Source of the DNA: Rhizophagus irregularis
Taxonomy: Eukaryota > Glomeromycota > Glomeromycetes > Glomerales > Glomeraceae
Assembly: GCF_026210795.1 (NCBI RefSeq)
Contig: NC_089460.1
Span: forward strand, 992,001-1,056,000
Length of the DNA stretch: 64,000 bases
Direction of reading: 5' to 3'
The notes beneath the pieces were generated by a model. That model was not told where the DNA came from. It worked only from the letters and a program-made list of their open reading frames with translations, and did no database searches. Within the stretch, counting starts at the first letter, position 1; the number at the start of each line of letters is the position of its first letter. Below, piece after piece: positions 10,472 through 62,889 of the stretch. Both the position numbers and the translations under genes were made by a program.

Positions 10472-12695
<2,224 letters not shown>

Positions 12696-20005: not shown

Positions 20006-22502
20006 ATGAGTCTTTCTGTGAATTTCAACACCCATTCTAAAGCACTTTCGTCAACTTATCAATCTGTTCTTAATGGCGATAAAGAAACAAGCTGGGTGCT
20101 TTATGGTTATGACAAGGGAAACAACGATTTGAAAGTTTTAGAAAAAGGAGGTAAGAACACTTTTGTTATTTTAATCAATTTCTTAGTCTTTAACATTACG
20201 ACAACGACTTTATAGCCGGAGGACTTGAAGAATTGGTGGAAGAATTTAACGATGGAAAAATTCAATATGCTTTTGTTAGAGTGATAGATCCAAATACTGA
20301 ATTACCGAAGTTTGTTCTTATCGGCTGGGTAATGTGTTTTCTACATTAATGTTTATACTCTTTTTTTCATTGATTCTTTATTCAATATATTTCCGCTCGA
20401 TCTTATTTAAATCAGTGTGGTGAAGGGGTACCGGAAATCAAAAAAGGATTGTTCAATTCACATTTTAACGAAGTTTCAAAGTTCCTAAAGGTTAGTGAAA
20501 TTTTTTCATTTGTCTAAATAAAATTTTTTTTTTAAAAAAAACAAAATCTAAATAATGGAATCTATGTAGGGTTATCATCTCCAAATTAATGCCAGATCAG
20601 AAGTAAGTTTCCCTACGCTATTATAATATGAAAGAATTTTTATATACTTACATTTTTTATCTTAGGATGATGTTGATCCAGAATATATAATGAAACGTAT
20701 TAATGAAAGCGGTGGTTCTAAATATTCAATTAATACTAATAAGGAAAAGTCGAGAAAGGAGGATCCAATTTTACCTGTTGTATGTTATTGTTTTAGTAGT
20801 TATTATTTATATTACTTAAAATATTTCAAATATATATTTCTAATATATATTTTTTAAATATATAGCATTCTGCATATGAACCAGTAAAAATTCCAGATAT
20901 TACTGCGTTACAACGACAAGCTCCTCGTGAAGCAATTAAGCCTGTTGTATGTGTACAAAGAAAAAAAGTCTTAGCTTATTAGGCATTATATATTAATTAA
21001 TTAATGTTCATAAAGGGTTCGGTGTATCAACCCGTTCAACTTCCAAAACCAAAACCGCTTGGTACACGATCAACGTGGACAACCCCCGCCGAGGAACCAT
21101 TACCGTCTGGATCATCTCCAGCAGAATTAAAAGCACTTAGAGAACGCGATCGCGCTGAGAAGGAACGTGAAAGAATAGAACGCGAAGAGAAAGAACGTGA
21201 AAACAAAGAACGCGAAAGAATAGAACGTGAAAAGAAAGAACGTGAAAGAATAGAACGTGAAGAGAATGAACGTGAAGAGAATGAACGTGAAGAGAATGAA
21301 CGTGAAGAGAATGAACGTGAAGAGAATGAACGCGAAGAGAATGAACGCTTAGAAGCTGAGCGATTGGAAGCAGAACGCCAAGAAGAGGCTGCCCGTAGAG
21401 AACAAGCAGAACGCGAAGAACAAGACAGAATCAGACATGAGAGAGAATTAAGACAACGCGACATAGAAGAAGAAAGATCAATAAAAGCTAAAGAAGATCA
21501 GGAAAGAATGGAGAAGGCTCGTAAGGAGAAAGAAGAAAGAGAGAAACGGGAACGAGAAGAAGAAGAAAGACAGAGACTAGAATTTGAACGCGAACAAGAG
21601 GTTTGTTATTAATAAATTAGTAAATCTTAAAAAAAAAACCGATTAAGAAATTTTTTAATATTTTTTCAATTTTCAAAATTCTCACCAGCAAGAAGCTGCA
21701 CGTCTTCAACTCGAGCAAGAACAACAATTGGCCCAGGCATTATTACATTCATTTTAATTAATTCGTACTCATTATGTTTAATGAATTATTTAAAAATTAC
21801 TATTTAATAAATTTAGACCACCACAATTTCTGCTGAATCAGCTGATAGTATAACAGCAATAGTTCAATATTCTTATGATGCTAGTAAGTAAACATAATTT
21901 TATTTTCACTTCATAAAATGAAACTTTTTTACCAGATTTTTTTAAAAAAAAATTTTAGGTGAAGACAATGAAATGTCGCTATTAGAAGGTGAAATTATTA
22001 GAGATATTATCCAATTAGATGAAGGATGGTGGCAGGGTACTAGTGCGGATGGATCCAGGTCTGGGCTTTTTCCAGGTAAATGATTTATATAAATAAATAA
22101 ACCTTTTTTCCCTAAAATGCATCAAAATAAAACTCTTCAAATATACAGCAAACTATGTCGAAATTATTGAGAATGTGCCTGAACAAGTTGAAGAAGTTGA
22201 AGCTGAACAACAACAAACAGTTGATTCGGTACAAGAACAACACACTGCTAAAGCAATAGCATTATACGATTATTCTGCAAGTGAAGAAAATGAAATCTCA
22301 TTTTCGGATGGAGATATTATCACAGACATTGAATTTGTTTCAGAAGATTGGTGGAGAGGCAAAGCTCCTGACGGGACAGTCGGTTTATTCCCAGGTAAAA
22401 ATTAAATTATATGCTATATAAATTTTATCAAAATTAAGCAATTTTATTTATATATTAATCTGTTTATTTTTAGCTAATTATGTGGAATTACAGAATTCAT
22501 AA
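20006..22502 (+). CDS. ABP1: Actin-binding protein Abp1/drebrin-like (ADF-H + two SH3)
   Basis: Abp1 binds F-actin at endocytic patches and recruits partners through SH3 domains. Twelve exons give 550 residues: 20006-20150, 20216-20328, 20416-20490, 20570-20602, 20666-20779, 20866-20946, 21016-21600, 21689-21736, 21817-21883, 21959-22075, 22149-22394 and 22474-22502. Residues 1-135 are an ADF-homology domain ([53 protein letters not shown]). A Pro-rich linker and a Glu/Arg-rich single-helix or coiled-coil region (about 205-395) follow, including six 5-residue EREEN repeats. Two SH3 domains end the protein: [20 protein letters not shown]...GWWQG...GLFPANYVEI and [20 protein letters not shown]...DWWRG...GLFPANYVEL. 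Start chosen to match the conserved N-terminus. Intron 8 has a GC donor. Confidence 0.93.
21253..21342 (+). repeat. 15-bp coding minisatellite in ABP1
   Basis: Six tandem copies of GAACGTGAAGAGAAT, nearly identical at DNA level (the last has C for T), encode (EREEN)x6. The block sits in a longer Glu/Arg-rich stretch with looser repeats on both sides. Low divergence between units suggests recent expansion. Confidence 0.92.
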
Positions 22503-26718: not shown

Positions 26719-28140
26719 TTAGGTATTTTTAACCCATTCATCATGTCTTTTAACTAATTCGGGAATTATCTTTGATTCAATTTCAACATCATTATTTACT
26801 TCTTCTTCAGATAATTGTATTTTAAGTTCAGAATCTTTTGTTATAAATGTTACTTCCAGTTTTCTTGTAGTCAGAAGATTACCAATAACGATTTGATGCC
26901 CATATCTTGTCAATGCTTGTCTTGATTTATCAACTAATAAAGAAGGATCTGTTTCTAACTATATAATAAAAAAAAATGGATAAATCATATAATTTTTTCA
27001 TAATAAAATAAAAAAAAAATTATTCCTAACCTTAAATGAAACAATAAATCCTTCCGGTACCCAGTTTGTGACCATTGGCTTTAAAAATTTTGGCACTTGA
27101 TCCATTGTAAGAGTTAAACCACCTTCCGCGGATTGAATTTTATGTTGAACCTATTTAATATTCAAGATTCTAGTCATAAACGATATAAATAATTTGAATT
27201 ATTAAAAAGGATATAATAATATTTGCTTACCATCTTTTGAGATGGAATAAAAAAATCACTGACAGCAGCAGCAAGGTAATACATTGCATTTTCTTTTAAA
27301 TTTCTCATGATTTGCGTAACACTACGAAGAAGAAAAAGATAATCTGCTACAGTAACGAAATTAATTAACAATAGTGTCCCATCTTGCTTTGCCTAAAAAA
27401 TGTAATAATATATCAACAACTAAAAAAAATTATATTAAAAGAGAAATTCTTAATTCTTCATTATTTACTTTTTTATATTTTTCCAATATAGATTTCATTT
27501 TTGGAATATATTGTGAATTAACTACTAATATAAAATAATTAATTTTTTGTCTCCTTTTTTTTTAAAAAAAAAAATTATTCAATTACCTTCAATTTTGCCA
27601 TCATTTCTTAATTCAATAAAATCAAGAAAACAATTTGTTGAATGAGTGTAATGTCTACTATATGGTTGTAAGCTAAATTGTCTATGCATAAAAATCACTG
27701 CATAACCTATCTCGAGAAAATATGTATTATTAAAATTTTTTGTTAAAGATAAAGCAAAAACTTCAACTAAAAAGATTATAGAAATGAATAAAAGGATATT
27801 CAGCTGAGGTAGCTCCTCTAGTTCCAGCACTAAAATTATCTAAAAATCTTACGGTATTATTTTCAAGTGGTACAGTAGTACCCCCACTCTTATTTTAAAA
27901 ATAAAATAAAATAAATAAAACACTATTTTCAATAAAATTAAATAAGTAAACTTTATTAATTACCGTAACCAAAACAATTCTTCTACCAGCTTTATCATGC
28001 TTATTTACAAATTCTTTTACTTTATTTTCATCTTCAGGTAATGTACTTGGTGGTAAATTATTTTGAAAATACGTGTCCGGATTAATTACTTCATTTGTAC
28101 CAGTATCGAGCAAACTTTTAGAAAAAATATTAGTGGTCAT
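26719..28140 (-). CDS. CAB2: Phosphopantothenate-cysteine ligase (PPCS, CAB2-like)
   Basis: This enzyme joins cysteine to 4'-phosphopantothenate in coenzyme A synthesis. Seven exons, 28140-27964, 27888-27800, 27723-27587, 27524-27469, 27392-27231, 27150-27031 and 26958-26719, give 326 residues, normal for eukaryotic PPCS. Conserved blocks are [75 protein letters not shown] and the C-terminal [19 protein letters not shown]. Intron 2 (27799-27724) begins ATATCCTTTT and ends AC. Only this split restores [12 protein letters not shown], as in other PPCS proteins, so it looks like a minor-class AT-AC intron. The other five introns are GT-AG. The gene is convergent with the unknown gene before it. 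Confidence 0.94.
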
Positions 28141-30533: not shown

Positions 30534-32071
30534 TTAAAAGACTTGTCTAACATTAACATTAATGCGAGAAGAAGACATAAAATCTCCGTAAATTTTCCAT
30601 TCGGGATCATCATCATAATTGGGCTCAAGATATTTTGGGAGAGTTCCTTCAAGAATTCGTGGAACACCTTAAATTTTAATTTCAAATAAATTTGTTGCCT
30701 TTTTTTTCGAAAAAAAAGGAGATAAAATTTACAAACCATGAAAATTAGTTCTGCAAGGACCACACATAATTGATATATCACCACTGCGCAAATATAATGC
30801 GATCGGTGCAATATCCTTAGTTGGTCCCCCAATTAAGAAAATACAGGTATGTCCAAAACTAATTTATTTTAAAATAAATAATAATAATATTAAATGAAAA
30901 TAAACATATATTTCTTTTACATACCTAAAAGAAATCAGAGGAGCTTCCATATTAATTTCGCTTTTATCAACATGAGCCATTATGTTATCTTTAAGTTGAT
31001 AATAATTTACAACGCCAGCTTCAGGTTTCCATTTTTTATGATCATAATCATTAACAAAATATTGTTTATCATTATTTTCGTTTGTTTCATTAGTATAAAA
31101 TTTAATTCCATTAATTGATTTTACAACAGAGGTTGTCAATAATTCAATGTCTTTAGGAAATGGGAGTCGCTTATCTAAATGATAAGTTTTTGTTGCCCAA
31201 TGATATTGATAACCTAATGTAATCCATCTTAATTTTTTTATTAATTCTGAAGGCGATAATATTGGCACACCTGATGATGGTAATGGTTCGCCTTTTTCTT
31301 CTCTTTCTTCTTTCTCCTGATACTCTTTTTCAACTAATGATTTTTGAGGACATTCCTTCTGAGTTATTTCTTGTTTGGCATCAATTTCTTCTTCATATAA
31401 TGAATTTTGTCCAGTTACAGATGCTTTTAATGGAACAACGCATCGTGAATCATTTTTGTCTAATTCACCATTAATTATTTTTTCATGCAAATTCCATAAA
31501 CCTTCTTTTGGTAATACATAATGAGTGTCAAGATTATTTTTATTTGGATATTTCGCAAAATCTTTTAAACATCTTTTTATTATGTTTTTTTGTGCTTCGG
31601 GTGTAAAAGGATTAGGAATAAATATAAATCCTAATAATAAAACAATAAAAAATAAAAAATAAAATTACATTGTTTATCCTTTATTTTTTTTTGTAAGAAA
31701 ATAAAAATCCACTTACCTGGTAAATCCTTAACAACATAAGCAATCCTTCTTTCCCCTTTAATAATTTCTTTCTCTTCTTTTAGTTCATTATAATCGCCAA
31801 ATATATTTTCTTTTTCCTCGTCATCATCTTTACCTAATTCAACTTTTAATTCAATTTTCACAATTTTACTTTTAATTTCATCACTAGATAGATCTAAATT
31901 ATAAAAATCTATAACATTATCGAAATTTGGTGGTGGTAAACGCGATTTAAAATTTCTTTCGGCGTCTCTAAATGGAGTTTGTGTTGAATGTGTAAAAGGT
32001 TTCGACTGTGATTGTCTTTGTTCTAATTTTTGTTGTCTCTTACTTTTATACTGTGCTTTTGAAGAAATCAT
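30534..32071 (-). CDS. ALKBH1-type Fe(II)/2-oxoglutarate dioxygenase
   Basis: ALKBH1 enzymes remove methyl groups from nucleic acids; reported substrates include tRNA and N6-methyladenine DNA. Four exons, 32071-31717, 31630-30925, 30858-30737 and 30667-30534, give 438 residues. The basic N-terminus is followed by an entry region (GFIFIPNPFTPEAQK), LRWITLGYQYHW and the jelly-roll core: GVVNYYQLKDNIMAHVDKSE with the iron-binding H-x-D, ISFSFGHTCIFLIGG, LRSGDISIMCGPCR, the distal His of FHGVPRI, and the 2-oxoglutarate motif R-x-N-x-x-x-R as RINVNVR near the end. All cofactor residues are present, so it looks active. A Glu/Lys-rich insertion (about residues 190-220) separates the halves. A second in-frame ATG at 32104 would add 11 residues. 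Confidence 0.93.
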
Positions 32072-34534: not shown

Positions 34535-35446
34535 TCAGGAAATTTGTTTAGGCGTAATTTAGTGTAATATTTTGAAGGTGGTGTAAAATTTTGAAATATT
34601 ACACTAAAACATAATATTACAAAAGTATACGCTCTTAAATTTAAATAATTATAGTAATTTAAGAATATCTCACTATCTACTGATCCAATTAAGACGATCT
34701 ATAGTTCATTGGAATTAGCTCATCAAGACAAATCGAATGGTAGTAAAATCGCATTTCTACAGTTGATAGAACGCTCTATAGTATACAATAAAGTTTTAAA
34801 TTAATAGAAAGCCATCTATCAAACGTAAAGATGTGATTTTACTACCATTCGATTCGTCTTGATGAGCTGATTTCAATGAACTATAGATCGTCTTGATTGG
34901 ATTAGTAGATAGTGAGATATTCTTAAATTACTATAATTATTTAAATTTAAGAGCGTAAATTTTTGTAATACAGTCAACTCTTAATATAACGAAGTTGGTA
35001 TCCGGGTTGATCAGGCCTTTGTTATAGGAATATTCGTTAATATGATGGGAAAATCTGGTATAACCCGGAAAATTTTTGTATATTATGGTATATTGTCGTA
35101 TAATAATTGTATCAAAATGCAAGTTACACAAAATATCTTCGTTATATTGAAAAAAAATTCGTTATAAAAGAAAATTCATTGTTAAAAGGGGCATTTTTCA
35201 TATACGGTTTATAAAATTTACTTCGTTAAACGGTATACGGCATTTAATTAGTAAAATTCGGTATAATGAGATTTTTTTCATATGTTAAAATCTGTACCAT
35301 ACTGAAGATCCGTTATATTGTAAAATTCGTTATATCAAAATTCGTTATAAGAAGAGTTGACTGTATTACGTTTTTAGTGTAATATTTCAAAATTTTACAC
35401 CACTTTCAAAATATTACACTAAATTACGCCTAAACAAATTTCCTGA
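34535..35446. mobile_element. Foldback MITE, copy A, carrying a nested insertion
   Basis: Ends TCAGGAAATTTGTTTAGGCG and its inverted partner bound a near-complete palindrome: arms of about 210-240 bp around a loop of about 80 bp near 34760-34840. It matches the element at 39871-40380 almost base for base, except that the right arm is split by a 393-bp TA-flanked insertion at 34971-35363. No coding capacity. The target duplication is unclear; both copies are flanked only by AT-like bases. Superfamily not assigned. Confidence 0.88.
34971..35363. mobile_element. Nested 393-bp Tc1/mariner- or pogo-type MITE
   Basis: It starts CAGTCAACTCTTAATATAAC and ends with the inverted form GTTATAAGAAGAGTTGACTG, flanked by TA on both sides (34969-34970, 35364-35365). 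CAGTC termini with TA duplication fit pogo/Tc1-mariner relatives. The interior has many TTCGTTATA-like words on both strands. Removing it restores the palindromic arm of the host element, so it inserted later. Confidence 0.88.
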
Positions 35447-35474
35447 TAGTATAATACAGTTTAAGGGAAAATAT

Positions 35475-35699
35475 AGGACCCCACTTACTTATAATAAAGG
35501 TTACTGTAGAAAATTAGCCTTTTACTAATAGTTTTTACCTTACTTTTTTCTTAAATACTATTGGTTAATTAGCTAAAAAGGAAAAAAATCATAACAATGT
35601 AACATAAAATTTCCTTTTATAGTAGGATTTGCAAAGAATTTTATATATGATTTTTACCTTAAGCCTGGGATGACCTATCTTATAAATAAGTAGGGTCCT
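35475..35699 (+). mobile_element. hAT-type MITE family 1, copy 1
   Basis: A 225-bp element with ends AGGACCCCACTTACTTATAA and inverted AGGACCCTACTTATTTATAA. Flanks GAAAATAT and GATAATAT match at 7 of 8 bases, fitting an 8-bp duplication as hAT elements make. It aligns over its length with copies at 36090-36313 (inverted) and 38191-38414. No coding capacity. Confidence 0.8.
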
Positions 35700-36089
35700 G
35701 ATAATATACTATTAACTGATTATTTTACTGGCAATATTTAAATAATATTAATAAAGGCCAATGCATATCTTTCAATACTAACAATAAGTTAATTTATTTT
35801 GTAAAATACTCTAATAATCTTCTTCTTACTATAGATAATTTAAGAAAGCATAACAATTTATATGATTAAATTAAATATCTATTGTGCTTTAGAAAAAGTA
35901 AAACTATTAAGCATTTTGTTATTTATCAAAAATAAAAATTAGTTTTTCATAACTAAAATTAAACAAAAAGTTATTAACAAAATTTTTAAGTTTATCACAA
36001 AAATAAATTCAAATAAAAGAAAGAATTTTTTTTGTAATTTATTGGAAAATATAAAGGTTGTTACTTATAAACTACACTAATATTATGTG

Positions 36090-36313
36090 AGAATTCTACT
36101 TACTATTAAAATAGGTCATCTTGTGGTCTAAGGTAAGGTTTACATATAAAATTCTTTAAAGATCCTACTATAAAAGGAAATTTTATGTTACATTTTTATG
36201 ATTTTTTTTCTTTTTAGTCAATTAACCAATAGAATTTAAGCAAATTCTAAAGTAAGGTTCATATGAAAGTGAAATTTCTACCGGTAACATATCTTAGTAA
36301 TAGGCGAGATCCT
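36090..36313 (-). mobile_element. hAT-type MITE family 1, copy 2 (inverted)
   Basis: The same 224-bp element as copy 3 in reverse orientation, sharing ACATAAAATTTCCTTTTATA and the rest of the interior. Flanks ATTATGTG and ATTATATG match at 7 of 8 bases. Its left terminus has diverged (AGAATTCT for AGGACCTT). Confidence 0.8.
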
Positions 36314-37305
36314 ATTATATGACTTCAAATTTTTATAAATTATAAATTAAATAGTAAACTAAACTGATAAAATAATAAAGCAACATATATTAAATATTTT
36401 TATTAGATTATTTTATAGAATTTAATAAGAATTTCAATTAATATTATAGATTAAAGTTGGATAATTTTAATAAGTAGTAATAATAAAACATAAAATTTTG
36501 GATTAATTTTTATTTAATTTTTATGGATTTTACAAAAATTCTATGGAAATTTATAAGAATTCCATATAATATAATAAAAAAAAAATTTGCTACTTATGTA
36601 GCAATTAATATTTTAATAAAGTACTTTTAAAAATAAATTATACAATATAAATAAATAAAATTTCAAATTTTGGATTATTGCTATTTATAGGTGATAACTA
36701 CCATACTATTTTTGAATATAAAAATAATGCATTTCCAGAATTTAAGATAAGAAGCTAAATAGAACTATCCAATTATCCTGTGATTTAATATCAGACACTA
36801 TTATGAAAAAGCTTAAATCTTTCATATCAAAGAAGTAAACTGCTATTATTACTATAAGAATAATTAATTAGTTTTACAATGCCTTTAAAAAATATGTATA
36901 AATTCTAAGATGCATAAAATTAATTAAAATAAAAGATCACTTCGGTATTGGAAAAAAAGAAAAATTATTTGCTATAAAATCTTTTGCTTCTCTACAATAA
37001 CTTGATTATATTTCTAAACTTAAAAGGAAAAAAAATATAATTTGTAAAAGTATAATCTGATGCAAAAATTACATCTTTTGTTACTTATTAGATAGATTAC
37101 AATAATTATAGAAATTCAAGAACTGGTATAAGTTAAAAGATTGTAATAATTTTAAAGAAAAAAATAATGATAATAATTTGGTTGTAGTATAGTAAATCTT
37201 ATAATTATTTTTACTTTAAAAATAAAACCTTTGATTAAAAATGATTTGTTTCATATGTAATCTATTTATTTAACATAATTAATTACTCAACAATATATAT
37301 GTGAA

Positions 37306-37549
37306 TAAGGTTGCTTGCCGTAACCTAGGGGTTTAGGCAAGATGGCGTTTCGCCGAAAAGCGAAATTCTGCCGAAACTATATTAAAGTTATATTAAAAAA
37401 CTGGCGAAACTTTGGAGAAAGGCGAAACTGCCAAAACTTATTATAAATGCCGAAACTGCCGAAACTCTGCCGAAACTATAATAAATCTATAGTAAAATTT
37501 TGATGAAACTAATTGTAGGATTTTGAAGAGGTTTAGACAAGTAACCTTA
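37306..37549 (+). mobile_element. hAT-type MITE family 2, copy 1
   Basis: A 244-bp element whose ends TAAGGTTGCTTGCC and GACAAGTAACCTTA are inverted. Both sides carry a perfect 8-bp duplication TATGTGAA (37298-37305, 37550-37557), diagnostic of hAT-type insertion. The interior repeats a GCCGAAACT word many times and is less AT-rich than its surroundings. A second copy is at 39453-39697. Confidence 0.88.
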
Positions 37550-38190
37550 TATGTGAAATATTTTCTTGATATAATAAGCAATTTCAATTATAAATTAATA
37601 ATATTAGAATAATTCTATAATTCTTTATTTTTTGTAATTTGTGTTACTTTAAATATTTTAATAAATTTATAAATATGCTGTAATTTAAAAAAAAAATTAT
37701 AATATATTATTTATATTTTTAAAAAATAAAGTTCAAATTATATAAAAATTCAAATAATATATAATTTTAAAAATAATCATATATTTTTTAAAAAATTAAT
37801 TGTTTTATTAATTATTTTTTTTATTATACTTAATAGTACAGTAATATGGTTAAAAGAAGAAATTACAAGAATCTATAATTTTATAATAATTAATTATGGT
37901 ACTTTATTTACTGAAATATAATATGCAAATATATCTTATGAGTTATACAAAATTATTAAATAAATCAAAAGAAATAAAAGAAAATAAAAAAAACAAAAAT
38001 GTAAAATAGGAAAATAATTAATAATAGAAATCTTTTTATAAAATTATCTACATTTTTAAAACTAAAAGTATTTTTACAAATATTGTTAAACCACTTATAG
38101 TTTTTTAAGCATTAATTGAATTTTATTTAAAACTGTAAGTTTTTTATTATTATTACTTAAAAATTTGTTATTTTTTTAATGTACTTAGCT

Positions 38191-38414
38191 AGGACCCACC
38201 TACTACTAAGATATGTTACCGGTAGAAATTTCACTTTCATATGAAACTTTACCTTAGAATTTGCTTAAATTCTATTAGTTAATTAACTAAAAAGGAAAAA
38301 AATCATAACAATGCAACATAAAATTTCCTTTTATAGTAGGATTTTTAAAGAATTTTATATGTAAACCTTACCTTAAGCTACAGGGTGACCTATCTTAATA
38401 GTAGGCAAGGTCCT
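38191..38414 (+). mobile_element. hAT-type MITE family 1, copy 3
   Basis: A 224-bp element with ends AGGACCCACCTACTACTAAG and inverted AGGACCTTGCCTACTATTAA, flanked by a perfect 8-bp duplication ACTTAGCT (38183-38190, 38415-38422). The perfect duplication suggests it is the youngest of the three. Confidence 0.9.
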
Positions 38415-38865
38415 ACTTAGCTTCTTTATATTTATATTTAACTGTTAATTAATATTCTGCAAATTTTTAAAATCATCATCTTGATTTTTTTTTGATAATG
38501 ATCTTTTCTTGGTGATTTTAATTAAGATTTATTCAAATTTGTTATAAAATAATATTTTCAAATATTTATAGCAAGATAAATTCTGTACCAATAATTTTAT
38601 TCAAGTCAGTTCATGTTTTATAATATGTAATCAGTTTATATTTTTGCCTATCTTGAATAATCTTAAATGCTTTATATTTCTATATATATAAAGTTAAAAT
38701 TAAAAGTTAAAAGTCAAAATATTTCAGTTTTGGAGGTCTTAAAGTTAAAATTAAAGTTAAAATTTATCATATCATATGATTTTAAATAGTTGTGAAATAA
38801 TAAAAATTTTAAATTGCAATAACTCTATTAATATTAAAACTATAAATATGAAAATAATGAAATTA

Positions 38866-39060
38866 GTGTTGCTGTCCAAAATTTATTTAATGATAAAATT
38901 AAAAATCTGAAATTTAAAAACTTTATTTTTAATAAAAAAATTGGCAAATCTGAAACTTTTCTAAATTATAATTAGTTTCAGAAAAGTATAATAACAGTTT
39001 AAACAATTAATTTTATTATAAAAAATAGTTTTAAATTAAATTTTAACTAAACTAAAATCT
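38866..39060 (+). repeat. Dispersed AT-rich repeat, copy 1
   Basis: About 195 bases similar to 58524-58700 in the same orientation. Shared words include ATTGCTGCCCAAAA/GTTGCTGTCCAAAA, ACTTTATTTTTAAT and CAATTAATTTTATTATAAAA. It looks like a decayed transposon fragment; ends and family are not resolved. Confidence 0.65.
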
Positions 39061-39452
39061 TGAAAAAATAGTTTTGGCAAGCATCTTTATATAAAATACA
39101 TATTATTTAAATCCTTTCAATAAAATAAATCAAATAGTATAAAAATTATTGGAATTTAATTACTAAATACCAAAATCATAAGCATAATATTTAAATAAGT
39201 AAGTATAAATTAATATTAATATTATCAATATAATCTTACTATCATATGATTAAAACTTTTAAATAAGTTATAGATTATTAAATTCTTTTTTTTTTTGCAA
39301 GGTAATGCAATTCATGAGTTTATTAGTTACATAATAGTAGTACAGAAATTTCTGATATATACATAACTAATCTATTAAAACTCTGAACCAGTTTCCCATC
39401 CTATAGATTGCTTCTGTGTCCTACTATCACCAATATGAAATTCATCTATATC

Positions 39453-39697
39453 TAAAGTTGCTGGAGAAACTAGGGGGTTTTGGCAAGTTGTTAAAATGCT
39501 GAAATGGCGAAACTTTGCTAAAACTATATAAAAGTCTTATTAAAAAGTTAGAAAAACTCTGGAGAAAAGCAAAACCTGATGAAACTTATTATAAATGCTG
39601 AAACTGCTAAAATCTTGCCAAAACTATAATAAAACTATAGTAAAATTTTGAAGAAACTAATCGTAGAATTTTGGAGAGGTTTAGGCAAGCAACCTTA
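39453..39697 (+). mobile_element. hAT-type MITE family 2, copy 2
   Basis: A 245-bp relative of the element at 37306-37549, aligning along its length including AACTTATTATAAATGC and the end GGCAAGCAACCTTA. The GCCGAAACT words are mutated. Flanks TCTATATC and CCTATATT match at 6 of 8 bases. It looks older than copy 1. Confidence 0.82.
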
Positions 39698-39870
39698 CCT
39701 ATATTCTCCTATAGTAGCTATTAGATTATATAGAATCATTATTATCATATGGCTTCAGTATGTGCTTTCACTACTTTCTAAATAAAAGAAAAAGGATTAT
39801 ATCTGTATTTGTATATCTTGATATTATTATATACCTTCCAAATTACCCTATTTCCTTCCCTAATAAGTCA

Positions 39871-40380
39871 TCAGGAAATTTGTTTAGGCGTAATAATTTA
39901 GTGTAATATTTCGGAGATGGTGTAAAATTTTGAAATATTATACTAAAAATGTAATATTACAAAAGTTTACGCTCTTAAATTTGAATAATTATAGTAATTT
40001 AAGAATATCTCACTATCTACTGATCCAATCAAGACGATCTATAGCTCATTGGAATCAGCTCATCAAGACGAATCGAATGGTAGTAAAATCGCATTTCTAC
40101 AGTTGATAGAACGCTCTATAGTATGCAATAAAGTTTTAAATTAATAGAAAGTTATCTATCAAACATAAAGATATGATTTTACTACCATTCGATTCGTCTT
40201 GATGAGCTGATTCCAATGAGCTATAGATCGTCTTGATTGGATCAGTAGATAGTGAGATATTCTTAAATTACTATAATTATTCAAATTTAAGAGCGTAAAC
40301 TTTTGTAATATTACAATATTTCAAAATTTTACACCACCTCCAAAATATTACACTAAATTACGCCTAAACAAATTTCCTGA
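39871..40380. mobile_element. Foldback MITE, copy B (uninterrupted)
   Basis: A 510-bp palindromic element: arms of about 210-220 bp (39871-40089 and 40172-40380) around a short loop. The arms are nearly identical, so the DNA or a transcript could form a long hairpin. Outer ends are TCAGGAAATTTGTTTAGGCG. It serves as the empty-site reference for the nested insertion in copy A. Confidence 0.9.
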
Positions 40381-40411
40381 TGTTATTATTATAATAGATA
40401 TGTAAAATATA

Positions 40412-42690: not shown

Positions 42691-44534
42691 ATGTCTGTAT
42701 CATCAGAAGAGGATAATAATTTATATCAACAATTGCAACATCAACTGCAAAGAATTGCTCTTACTGCGCCAATCACAACACAAGGAACCACATGTATACC
42801 CTCTTTTGCTGGATCTATGCCTCAACTAGCACCTCCATTAAAAACAAAGAGAAAACAAGTAAAAAACGCTTGTGGTAAGTAAAACTTTCATTTATTTATT
42901 TTTTTTTCACGTAACTTGTCTGTAAAATATGTTTTATTGCTTATTACCATATTTACCTATTTTGGAGTCTTTTTTTGGCTATAAAATAATTTTGTACTAC
43001 TTAATTCCGGGAGCTCGGAATTTGACATTTTGTGTAACAATTGTTTAAAATTTTGACATTATTAGTAAACTGTCAAAAGGCATGCAAGAGATGTGATGAT
43101 GGAAGACCCTGTCAACGTTGTATAAAATACGGGCTTACTGAAACATGTAAAAACTCTATTCGAAAAGAGAGAAAAAAAGGTATCAAAAGAGGTCCATATA
43201 AACGTCGTACACAGATAAAAGGTAAAAATCCTCATAAAATAATGTACTATTATTAAAGATTTGTTAATTTTATTTTATTTTTTTTTTAAGACCAAGACGA
43301 TAAATATACGACATCAACGAGTTCTGTTTCCTCTGAAGTTTTTACAGTACCCGCTTCTTACGGACAAATTGGTGAACTACCTGTTAATCCCCTTCCTATT
43401 AATCTTCCGTCAATCTCTTCACAAATATTTGGAACACAACTGTCAACACTCGATAGCGGTGAAAAATTTATTCTCATTCCTCAAAGTTCAGGAGGCACTT
43501 CATATTATGTTCTTATGCCAGTTCAACAACAAAATCAAATTTCTATTTTACCTACTAGAATTTGTGCTAGTAAAGATTTAACTACCGATTTAGATCAAGA
43601 TATACAGGTTAAAATAGAATCTGAATTTCAATCAGGAGTATCTGATGGATTACTTTTAGAAGAAGATTCTAAATTCGCTGTCAATAAGGAAGAAAATTAC
43701 GAAATCATCCCAAATAAAGAAAAAGAAAAAAAAGATAAATCGAATTTATCTGTTCTTTCTCTTGTATGTAGTGGTTTATTGAATCAAGAGACTGATACTT
43801 ATGAACAAGCAAATAAAGAAATGGACGGAAATTCTTCACAAGACGAAGATAATGAATCTTTGAAATCTAATATATCTGATATACCTGTTAGCCAGAATCT
43901 AGTAAATAATGAAAAGCAACAAGTGTCAGAGTACAATAAAAAGAACCAAATACTTGATTCGGTTAAGAACAAAATCGTCAAAGAAAATTTGGAAGAGTCA
44001 CTAAAGGCACATAATACACCTGGAGATTCGGTTAAGAATACAACACATGTGGAACCACGAGTTTATAGTTGGGACTATCATTCTCCATCATTTCAAACAC
44101 CTTCAGTCGAGAGTCCTTTGTTGTTTTCAACTCCTGCTAATACTTATCCTGTAGCTCAAGCTCAATATGTGCCAATAAAGTGTGAATCAAATATTTATGA
44201 TATGAAATGCACGAGACAACAAAATGAGGAGTTTCAATTACTTCAACATGGTGACTCATTTTCTCAAAATCAAATACCAATGCGACAACAATATTATGAA
44301 ATATCCCCTTTCACACCATCTCATACGAATCCATCTAACGCTTACATGGTACAACAAAATCAAACATCATCTTTCTATCAATTTAGAGGTCAACAATTGC
44401 CACCACAATTCACACCAACTTCTTTGTCATTTGCTTTTAGTCCGAGAATTTCTAATAAAAGCACCCCTCAATCGCAAATTCGTTGTTATGCTGGCTTATC
44501 TGTCTCATCAAATGGCTTGGAAGATTCTTCTTAA
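42691..44534 (+). CDS. Zn2Cys6 zinc-cluster transcription regulator (ERT1/AcuK-like cluster)
   Basis: Fungal zinc-cluster proteins bind DNA and control metabolic genes. Three exons, 42691-42874, 43066-43221 and 43291-44534, encode 527 residues from MSVSSEEDNN. The cluster is at about residues 59-88: NACVNCQKACKRCDDGRPCQRC...GLTETC, with C-x2-C-x6-C-x5-C-x2-C-x8-C spacing and one extra Cys. The D-D-G-R-P-C-Q-R-C-I-K core is that of ERT1/AcuK-type gluconeogenesis regulators. A basic stretch RKERKKGIKRGPYKRR follows and is a likely nuclear signal and DNA contact. The remaining 400 residues are Ser/Gln/Asn-rich and look disordered; I see no fungal-specific middle homology domain or PAS domain. 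The target pathway is therefore open. Confidence 0.88.
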
Positions 44535-47212: not shown

Positions 47213-50200
47213 ATGACCACGGCCGCCGCGCCAGCAATGTCTAGTGAACGATTTCAAAATACAAAAAATAGGATCGCGTCACTATCAAGTAAAAATGAAG
47301 AGGTAAATAAAATAAAAATAAAATTTATTATTTTAATAAAATAATTTAGTCTATTTTATTTAATTAATCAGCTAATTTATGATATTTTTATTTTATTTTT
47401 TTTTTTGAATGGTCACTTTTAATTTCATTATTACTTTTTTTTTTCTTTTTCTCTTTCTAAATAGTTTCTCGACCAAATAAACAAATTACAACATTCACAT
47501 TCTCAAGCTTTAACTGCATTAAATAGTCAATTGGAAACCATTCCTACAGATGATTCAGAACAAAATATTGATAATCTAGTTAATAATTTAAAATTTAATC
47601 AAAGGCGTAGTAATAATTTACAACAACAATCAATATCTACTGTACTTAGGTCAGATAAATTAGGTAACGGAAAAGATCTTGAAGATGTAATGGAGGTGGA
47701 AGATGATTATAAAATGAAAATGAATGGAACAGGAACAATTACTGCTATTGATGATTCTTTATCATCGAGAAAATCGGCAAAACTTGCAATGGTAAATCGT
47801 ACTGTTAAGGAATTAAAAAAAATTGAATCTAATGGAGAATTGGATCGAAAATATTTTTCAGCTGAAAATAATTCAGATTCTGAAGATGTTAATGAGAATA
47901 GTAGTATTGAAGATAAAGATTTTGAAAATATTAACGATCGACGAAGAATTCTTAAGAGTCATCCTACTTTAACTATTAATACTAAAACTACAAAATCATC
48001 TTCACGATTAATTACACCAGAATCTTCTGATTCAGAATTTGATATTTCAAAAGCACATATGCCTCTTGCTCCTACATTAGGTGGAAGTAGAAATTCTCTT
48101 CGTGCTGCTCGTCATAGTTCTGCTGAACATTATAATGGTAACATAACAGAACGACGTGGTCGGGGTATATTTTCAATGGATGATGTCATTGAAGAAGAAA
48201 GAGGAGGTTCTTTATCAGATGTAGCTGAACAAAATGAAATAAGTACTGAAAATATTAATCGTATGCGGGGTAAGCAAATAATTTCTGCAAATGGTAGAAA
48301 GCGAACACAAAAATATATGGATGAAAATGATGTTCCTAAAACAATTAAAATGCATCGAAGACCACAAACAGATGATTCATATGCTGATATTCCAGATGAT
48401 AATAGTAGTGTAATGTCAACCGATTCTTATCTTCAAATAGAAGAACTTAGAGCGCGCATTCAAAAACTTGAGTCAGAACGCATTGATGATGGTATGTTTT
48501 ATTATCTTTAAAATCATAATAAAAAATATATAAATTAATTATAATAATAATTATAATAAAATTTATAATAATTTCTTAATAACAATTTATTTATTTATTT
48601 ATATTAAACAGAACTTATGTCTGAACGAAAGAGCCAAAGAAGAAAGAAACATCATTCTGATTCAATATCTCCAGCTGCTCTGTCTCCTGATAGTTCCCAA
48701 GGTGGGACCAGTTCGATCACAGGTGTTCCAAGACGTTCTCCGGCATTGGCCCAACATCAAAAACATTTGCAAAATGCCTTTGATATGTTTGAGAAAGCAT
48801 TTACAACAGATTATCCGGTTGATGATTCCTCACCCCCACCTTCACATTCAATGGCAATGGTAGTGTCATCGGCACTTTCATTAAATCAAAAGTTGCGTTC
48901 AATCATGTCACAAATGGAACTTGATGGTCAACTTGAAAGAGGAATGAAGGCATTATTAAAAACGAGTGATGAACAGGTCCGAAGTTTAACCGAATGTTTA
49001 TTAGCACTTGCTCCTCTTTCTCCAAAAAGAGTATCATCAAAGAAAATGGAGAGAGATCAACTTGGTATAAAAGGATATGCTTATTATCCTGGTGATTCAT
49101 CCCTCTTGCAAGCTTCTACTCCTTCACATTCCACACGATCTATTTCTCCTCCTATACCAAGAATATCATCTGCTCCAGTTATTGCTTCCCATGAATCACA
49201 GATTAGTGAACATGATCAGCTACATGATCAATCCTCACGAAGAGTTTCTCCAGGTCCTCCATCTGATCAATCATCTCCACCTAATTCATATTATGTTCCA
49301 CAAAGAGCTACATCACGTTATAGGTCTTCCTCTCCAACCTTACCAGAATATAATGATTCACAAATTTCAGCTACACGTGTATTAGAACGAAAATCACGTC
49401 GTTCCTCTGGTACTGCATATTCTGGTACAAATCCTATTTCATCAACTTCACCTTCTCCACCACCAATGCAACATCCACCTTCTCATTATGATCAACCGGG
49501 GTCGCGTGTTTATTATGAACGCGAAATTCCACGTGAAACACCTCGTGAACTACCTCGGTTACAAAGATTCAGTATACAAGGATATAACAATGTTTCATCC
49601 CAACCGGCCTCTTCAGCATATCAGAGAACTGCATCACGTCCATTAACACATATTCGAACCGATGAATTATCTTATCCTTCTAATCACGTTCGAACATCAT
49701 CTACATCATCTACATCATCTATTCATCGTTCTTCATCGGGAAGATCATATACGTCACGTGTTGCTAATGAAGAATATGTAAATAGTCCAGTTTCAACTAC
49801 AAGATCACAACCACGATATGAGTATACTCGAAGGTATCCTTCTGATGGTCAATCTCCAATAGAAAGACGTCCAACGCCTGGAATGGAGACGGATCGGAGA
49901 TATTCAAGACGTTTGGTAAATCAAATATACGAGCCTGAAGATGGCTATGATGGGTCAAATGGTTACGGAGAAAATATTCCTGAAAGAGATTACATTAGAG
50001 ATGATAAAATGGGAATAAGAAGAAACATCTCTAATGGTAGTGGTACTTTTAGACAAAAAATGGTACCTGCTCAAGAACAAGAAGTAAACAGAAATGTTGG
50101 AGTTGGTAATGAAGAAAGTCGAGGTGGTCAACAAAATGATGAAATAAATGATCAAAATGTTCAAGTAAACGGCACGAATGTTGAAAATAGTGAAGAAAAT

Positions 50201-58523: not shown

Positions 58524-58700
58524 GTATTGCTGCCCAAAACTTAACAATAAAATTCAAAAATCTGAAACTCAAAAACTTTATTTTTAATGAAAAAATTGGT
58601 AAATCTGAAAATTAAGTTTTGGAAAAGCATAAAAACAGTTTAGGCAATTAATTTTATTATAAAAAATAATTTCAGATTGAATTTTGACTAAACAAAAAAA
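58524..58700 (+). repeat. Dispersed AT-rich repeat, copy 2
   Basis: It aligns with 38866-39060 over about 180 bases with scattered differences and small gaps. It is probably a remnant of a non-autonomous element; the two copies are 20 kb apart in the two gene-free islands. Confidence 0.65.
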
Positions 58701-60002
58701 ATTACTACTATCTGTAATATATAAGTAATAATATAATAATATATAATATTGATATTAATTTAGCAAACTATTTTTTTTTATTTATACTAATTGTATTTAA
58801 AGAATATATTTTTTTTGCTTTTAATTTGGCATTTTTTTATTAGTAAAAGACTAATTTTAACCCTGGTGATTTATCAATCTGGATGATTTAATCTACTAAT
58901 AAAGTTTATGTAATTATATAATTTTGCCCAAATTTTCAAAAAAATAAGTAAATTATGGTCATGATCAAAAATAAGAGATATTGTCAAAAATATTAAGAAA
59001 ACTTGGTCATTATATTCTATAATATCCAAATAAATAAAATTTATATAACGTGAATAATAACATAAATAATTTCTTTTTTTTTAAAAAAAAATGATCGATA
59101 TAAAATATAAATTTTAGGGGGGTGATTTAACCCAGATTATCTAACCCAGTTAGCAAACTCTTTTATTATTACAAATTTTTTATGAAAAACTGAAAATCCG
59201 AAAATAGTAAAATCAGAAAATCAGGTTTTTAGTTGGCTGAAACTATTTTACTTAGAAAGGTAATTGGAATTTGTCAAATACATGAAAAAGGAATTGGCTG
59301 AAACTATAGCCAATATTTTTTTTTAGAAAAGTGCAACGATTATTTGTTCTAAATAAGCTTATTTTTATTCGGGGAAGCTGATAAATTTCAGATCAAAATT
59401 ATTTTAAAAATAACAGAAAAGCGCGCCTCATTTGATTGTTTGGTTCCTTTTAAAATAGAATAGCCTCTAATTAAAGGGAATGGATGTAATGAACAATGCG
59501 CAAACACTTGAAGCACAAGCACGTTTATAGCTAAAAATAGAAATTATAAATTTGATGCATATAACAGTATGTACCGAGTATGCAAGAATATGGACCAGTA
59601 ATATAAGCATTAAATTGGAATTTCTTGATTTTTCATTGGATGATCTTTGAAAAAAAATTTTTTTTTTGTATCCTTTCTTAGCTATAATTATAAATTGTTA
59701 TTTTAGAGAACGAAAACTTTGAATATCAATAATACCCCTTCTGCACACTGCGCTCTTTCTAGGAGGCACATTCGACATCTAATAAATTTGAATTGGTTAG
59801 CAAAGAAAGTTCATGCGTTATTAAGCACTAGCATTAATTACTCGAAATTACATTAGGCGAGTAACACATTACAATGCTTACAATGCTTTAATCAATCAGA
59901 TTTGTGTTACAGATTGTCGAGATAACTTTGACTATCAAAACAAGAGTTTCTTTTTTTTGTGCGCCAGTCGTGGACAAAAATAAAAGGCGCGACATTCTAA
60001 AA

Positions 60003-60134: not shown

Positions 60135-62889
<2,755 letters not shown>

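Follow-up and report, generated by a model that had tools for sequence, protein, structure and literature searches.

A seven-exon PPCS gene with one AT-AC intron

The window, by which we mean the whole 64,000-nucleotide stretch of DNA analyzed here, carries on its minus strand a gene at 28140-26719 whose seven exons, separated by six introns, give a 325-amino-acid product. Exon 1 (27964..28140) starts with the ATG at 28140 and is followed by exon 2 (27800..27888), which ends in ...TCAGCTGA, and by exon 3 (27587..27723), whose first bases are ATATTTTCTCGAG. Exons 4 (27469..27521), 5 (27231..27392), and 6 (27031..27150) lead to exon 7 (26719..26958), which closes with the TAA stop codon at 26721-26719. 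Five of the six introns have GT-AG termini (65, 72, 75, 76, and 80 nt); the remaining one, intron 2 (27724..27799), is an AT-AC intron of 76 nt in phase 2.

When the 325-amino-acid product was searched against the PDB, four distinct sequences were matched at an E value of <0.001. Yeast CAB2 (6ai8) was the top match (E = 1.3e-81, 277.4 bits), with homology over residues 21-323 of the product in two stretches, followed by human PPCS (7edz, E = 4.6e-80, 272.3 bits; 1p9o, E = 1.2e-79, 271 bits), which is homologous over residues 43-322; 2gk4 was a weak match (E = 1.3e-7). Based on this homology to CAB2 and PPCS over most of its length and on a Pfam match to DFP (2e-17), the gene is predicted to encode a eukaryotic phosphopantothenate-cysteine ligase, referred to below as PPCS. 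An orthologue search of two non-eukaryotic collections gave 14 pattern matches in viral contigs and 71 in prokaryote genome contigs, none of which was confirmed in either set. At the 3' end of PPCS intron 3 (27522-27528, minus strand), tandem acceptors are present (TTAGTAG), both of which keep the frame with a one-residue difference (VNS or VVNS); NAGNAG alternative splicing is possible at this site.

A second multiexon gene, GFA1-like, lies on the plus strand at 60135-62889 and has eight exons and seven GT-AG introns, with exon 1 matched by glutamine amidotransferase models in Pfam. We take it to be a glutamine-fructose-6-phosphate aminotransferase gene.

Protein homology and the boundaries of intron 2

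A first-pass annotation of this DNA had proposed a 76-base minus-strand intron at 27724-27799 that starts with a minor-class donor consensus, and the intron was indeed seen to begin with ATATCCTTTT and to end with AATAATAC. The product of the 27800/27723 junction aligns without a gap to both CAB2 (GTRGASSAEQFLANGYSVIF) and human PPCS (RRGATSAEAFLAAGYGVLF), in agreement with the proposal that a conserved PPCS motif is formed across the junction. The intron lies within the codon for the conserved glutamate of SAE, and the exons that follow stay in frame up to the terminal TAA. If intron 2 were retained, a stop would be reached at the 12th codon past this glutamate, and 100 of the 325 PPCS residues would be made, 11 of them wrong. 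Since retention stops translation so early, a working PPCS should depend on the removal of intron 2.

To score alternative boundaries, donor/acceptor pairs were enumerated exhaustively, starting at base 7 of exon 2 and moving toward the exon 3 end, for intron lengths of 30 to 219, and each product was given a summed BLOSUM62 local score against CAB2 and human PPCS. In this exon 2-3 interval, 31,435 pairs were tried, 7,291 of which left the frame open, and the top score (441) belonged to a single mRNA. This mRNA is common to five sequence-equivalent registers at the junction (AT-AC, TA-CA, AT-AT, TC-TA, and CC-AT), because ATAT opens both intron 2 and exon 3, and since all five give one mRNA, the sequence does not single out one cut site. 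Of the five, AT-AC alone has commonly accepted termini, and in no other register does the full donor motif start at the first base.

Pairs whose termini are of no accepted class, shifted by one or a few bases, scored up to 429, and the best AT-AG pair scored 400. Another AT-AC acceptor is available at 27742, where the AC is part of the branch motif; it adds six residues and was rejected at 412 versus 441. We also considered whether a GT-AG or GC-AG intron with other boundaries is used instead, such that a variant protein is made. While 22 GT-AG and 3 GC-AG pairs keep the frame open in the interval, the best of each scored 378 versus 441 and damages the conserved motif: the GT-AG solution replaces FLEIG with eleven other residues past the start of SAEY, and the GC-AG solution deletes AEYFLE. 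Conventional splicing at other boundaries is thus extremely improbable in our estimation.

U12-type signals in intron 2

The consensus of U12-type 5' splice sites is RTATCCTTT, with TATCCTTT as the positions after the first base, and that of U12-type branch sites is TTCCTTAAC; U2-type AT-AC donors resemble ATAAGT (the match counts below refer to the two U12 patterns). We compared intron 2 with 12 control introns, the five other PPCS introns and the seven of GFA1, which had been picked as GT-AG introns by reading frame. The 5' splice site of intron 2, ATATCCTTTT (27790..27799, minus strand), matches 8 of 8 positions after the first base, whereas the controls match 2 to 5. Its branch-site-like sequence, ATCTTTAAC (27742..27750, minus strand), matches 7 of 9 positions with TAAC intact, the other two being mismatched, compared with 5 to 6 of 9 in the controls. 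The 3' splice site AC (27724..27725, minus strand) is the sole AC downstream of the branch motif, and neither AC nor AG occurs between the two. The AT-AC termini fit those of U12-type introns, which are AT-AC or GT-AG.

These signals also bear on whether intron 2 is a U2-type AT-AC intron spliced by the major spliceosome. The TCCTTT that follows ATA is the U12 pattern and does not fit ATAAGT, and the U12-like branch outscores those of all 12 GT-AG introns. We therefore consider a U2-type intron highly unlikely, even though AT-AC termini are also found outside U12-type introns, as noted in a review (PMC3584512). According to that review, donor and branch sequences define the U12 class, and the optimum distance from branch to 3' splice site is 11 to 13 nt (PMC3584512). 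In intron 2, the last base is 19 nt away from the second A and 20 nt away from the first, which exceeds the optimum and agrees with the first-pass description of a branch site about 19 bases before the intron end, slightly far.

A pseudogene, or an assembly error in this stretch, would make the AT-AC pattern fortuitous. The gene is known here as one copy from a single window, which leaves room for such an explanation; on the other hand, the 325-amino-acid frame is free of stops, homology to CAB2 and human PPCS is strong over the spans given above, the five other introns are GT-AG, and a full U12 donor stands exactly at the junction. With these observations set against it, we assign this explanation a very low probability.

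Chance expectation and other U12-like sites

A blind search of the window for the donor-branch-AC architecture found one instance, compared with a mean of 0.55 in each order-3 Markov sequence, and 31 of 100 such sequences contained at least one. U12 motifs alone are therefore not significant in this AT-rich window, since they are expected by chance. The case for a U12-type intron rests instead on the coincidence of the motifs with a junction fixed by the protein, which is improbable by chance. Under an order-3 Markov model fitted to the remainder of the window, the probability of ATATCCTT at any one of the five registers fixed by the protein is ~2e-4, that of ATATCCTTTT is ~4e-5, and that of a branch of this quality 8 to 20 nt from the intron end is ~0.008. 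Even when the donor and branch probabilities are multiplied together and by 100 introns, to allow for the choice of introns that could be viewed, the result is still ~2e-4 or less.

The sequence ATATCCTTTT occurs three times in the window versus about one expected, and RTATCCTT occurs at 12 sites, including 27799. Among these 12, none except 27799 is followed by a YYTTAAC or TTTTGAC branch and then a matching AC or AG. In a scan of both strands of the window, a perfect donor, a branch matching at least 6 of 9 positions with TAAC, and a matching AC or AG came together only at 27799 (minus strand); allowing one donor mismatch adds two further start points, at 60533 and 5493 (both minus strand), the former antisense to GFA1 exon 1. 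Four of the other RTATCCTT sites were placed relative to the open reading frames (ORFs) of the window. Two of them, on the minus strand, lie antisense to long plus-strand ORFs, one at 12128, where the ORF has a MOZ/SAS match, and one at 49078. A second ATATCCTTTTT lies at 27214 (minus strand), inside the GT-AG intron 5 of PPCS, and is either a chance U12-like donor or a cryptic one. At 59668 (plus strand), ~470 bases before the ATG of GFA1, GTATCCTTTC is a full match to the GT-type U12 donor; a consensus branch followed by AG was not found downstream of it.

Probable assignment of intron 2 to the minor spliceosome

The window shows directly where intron 2 lies, how the reading frame and the protein continue across it, and which signal sequences it carries, and its donor, branch site, and termini, together with the protein evidence, support a U12-type AT-AC intron as the best reading. 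We are strongly inclined to accept intron 2 of PPCS (27799-27724, minus strand) as a genuine minor-spliceosome intron of the AT-AC subtype, so that the central proposal of the first-pass annotation is upheld by a donor of 8/8, a branch of 7/9, the termini, and the continuity of the protein. Judged from these signals, the intron is probably spliced, and by the minor spliceosome. In the established pathway, recognition of ATATCCTTT would fall to U11, with U11-48K placed at the first bases, and U12 would pair with TCTTTAAC, leaving one of two As as the branch point. U6atac/U4atac and U5 would then complete catalysis, with the AC downstream of the branch. A U12-type intron in PPCS predicts minor-spliceosome parts in the genome, which would be expected to encode U11, U12, U4atac, and U6atac; an Rfam search of the window itself gave no match.

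Such parts have been described in fungi. A survey by Larue and Roy (2023; PMC10639083) reports that Rhizophagus irregularis has 205 predicted minor introns (0.272% of 75,377 annotated), the complete set of four minor snRNAs, and many of the minor-spliceosome proteins, that Basidiobolus meristosporus has 249 minor introns, and that minor introns are present in Spizellomyces and some Neocallimastigomycetes, whereas convincing support for them is lacking in Ascomycota and Basidiomycota. In the Rhizophagus irregularis introns described there, the donor and branch motifs are similar to those of animals and plants and phase 0 is disfavored, and PPCS intron 2 resembles these introns in both respects. 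Likewise, another paper (PMC2846911) describes AT-AC and GT-AG U12 introns along with U12-type spliceosomal RNAs in Rhizopus oryzae and Phycomyces blakesleeanus. PPCS intron 2 is like these in being an AT-AC intron in what is apparently a non-Dikarya fungus, although U12 introns are few in those two species and the fungal example named is ribosomal protein S13.

Since minor introns and their machinery have already been published for such fungi, finding a minor intron outside Dikarya is unsurprising. The first-pass remark that most studied fungi have lost the minor spliceosome stands for Ascomycota and Basidiomycota, but the notability drawn from it is weakened because several other fungi keep minor introns (PMC10639083, PMC2846911). 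Because many such introns are published for some fungi, we view PPCS intron 2 as a convincing but ordinary new example.

As to the gene itself, our literature search found no report on a U12 or minor intron in PPCS (phosphopantothenoylcysteine synthetase). The term "phosphopantothen" is absent from the main text of PMC2846911, and both it and "PPCS" are absent from the main text of PMC10639083. Genes for small-molecule metabolism are under-represented among the Rhizophagus minor-intron genes (5 versus 24.44 expected), as stated in that survey (PMC10639083); PPCS would accordingly belong to the rarer cases, provided that the same pattern applies here. Intron 2 offers a clean, protein-anchored example of the AT-AC minor class in a gene of central metabolism, namely coenzyme A biosynthesis, in an apparent early-diverging fungus, and a gene finder restricted to GT-AG introns would mis-annotate PPCS. 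We think it rather unlikely that the source fungus lies outside the known minor-spliceosome species, or that the intron in PPCS is a minor one missing from existing catalogues, at a site not common to animals and plants. If the fungus or the intron site were new, U12 splicing would have been kept or gained in a case yet to be described.

Other features of the window

The G+C content of the window ranges from 0.18 to 0.34 in 4-kb bins and is 0.20 at 32 to 40 kb. This low G+C, the compact introns, and the slightly higher PDB score of PPCS against CAB2 than against the human enzyme (277.4 versus 272.3 bits) suggest a fungus, possibly one of the Glomeromycotina. Repeat pairs were seen at 34606-34905/39946-40245, with further pairs within 35381-40389, and at 38895-39057/58550-58698; their members are 84 to 95% alike and lie in or near gene-poor, low-G+C stretches. 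Those around 34606-40389 and 58550-58698 are possibly the remains of transposable elements. A 31-mer taken from a repeat had no match in either the viral or the prokaryote contigs.

On the plus strand at 21128-21382, repeats at 15-nt spacing (13 overlapping copies) encode a charged repeat within an ORF that precedes one with an SH3 domain. A cysteine-rich CQKACKRCDDGRPCQRC stretch at 43038-43253 (plus strand), for which Pfam gave no match, presumably resembles fungal Zn-cluster regulators. The minus-strand ORF at 30867-31664 encodes a 2OG-Fe(II) oxygenase (Pfam 2OG-FeII_Oxy_2), which in our assumption resembles ALKBH1. Among the best 60 of 156 PDB matches to an S2 ribosomal protein exon, many ribosomes that we take to be from animals and plants rank above entries that we assign to Neurospora, Chaetomium, and Candida, a ranking that fits a fungus outside Ascomycota but other eukaryotes as well, and that is no argument for a fungus on its own.
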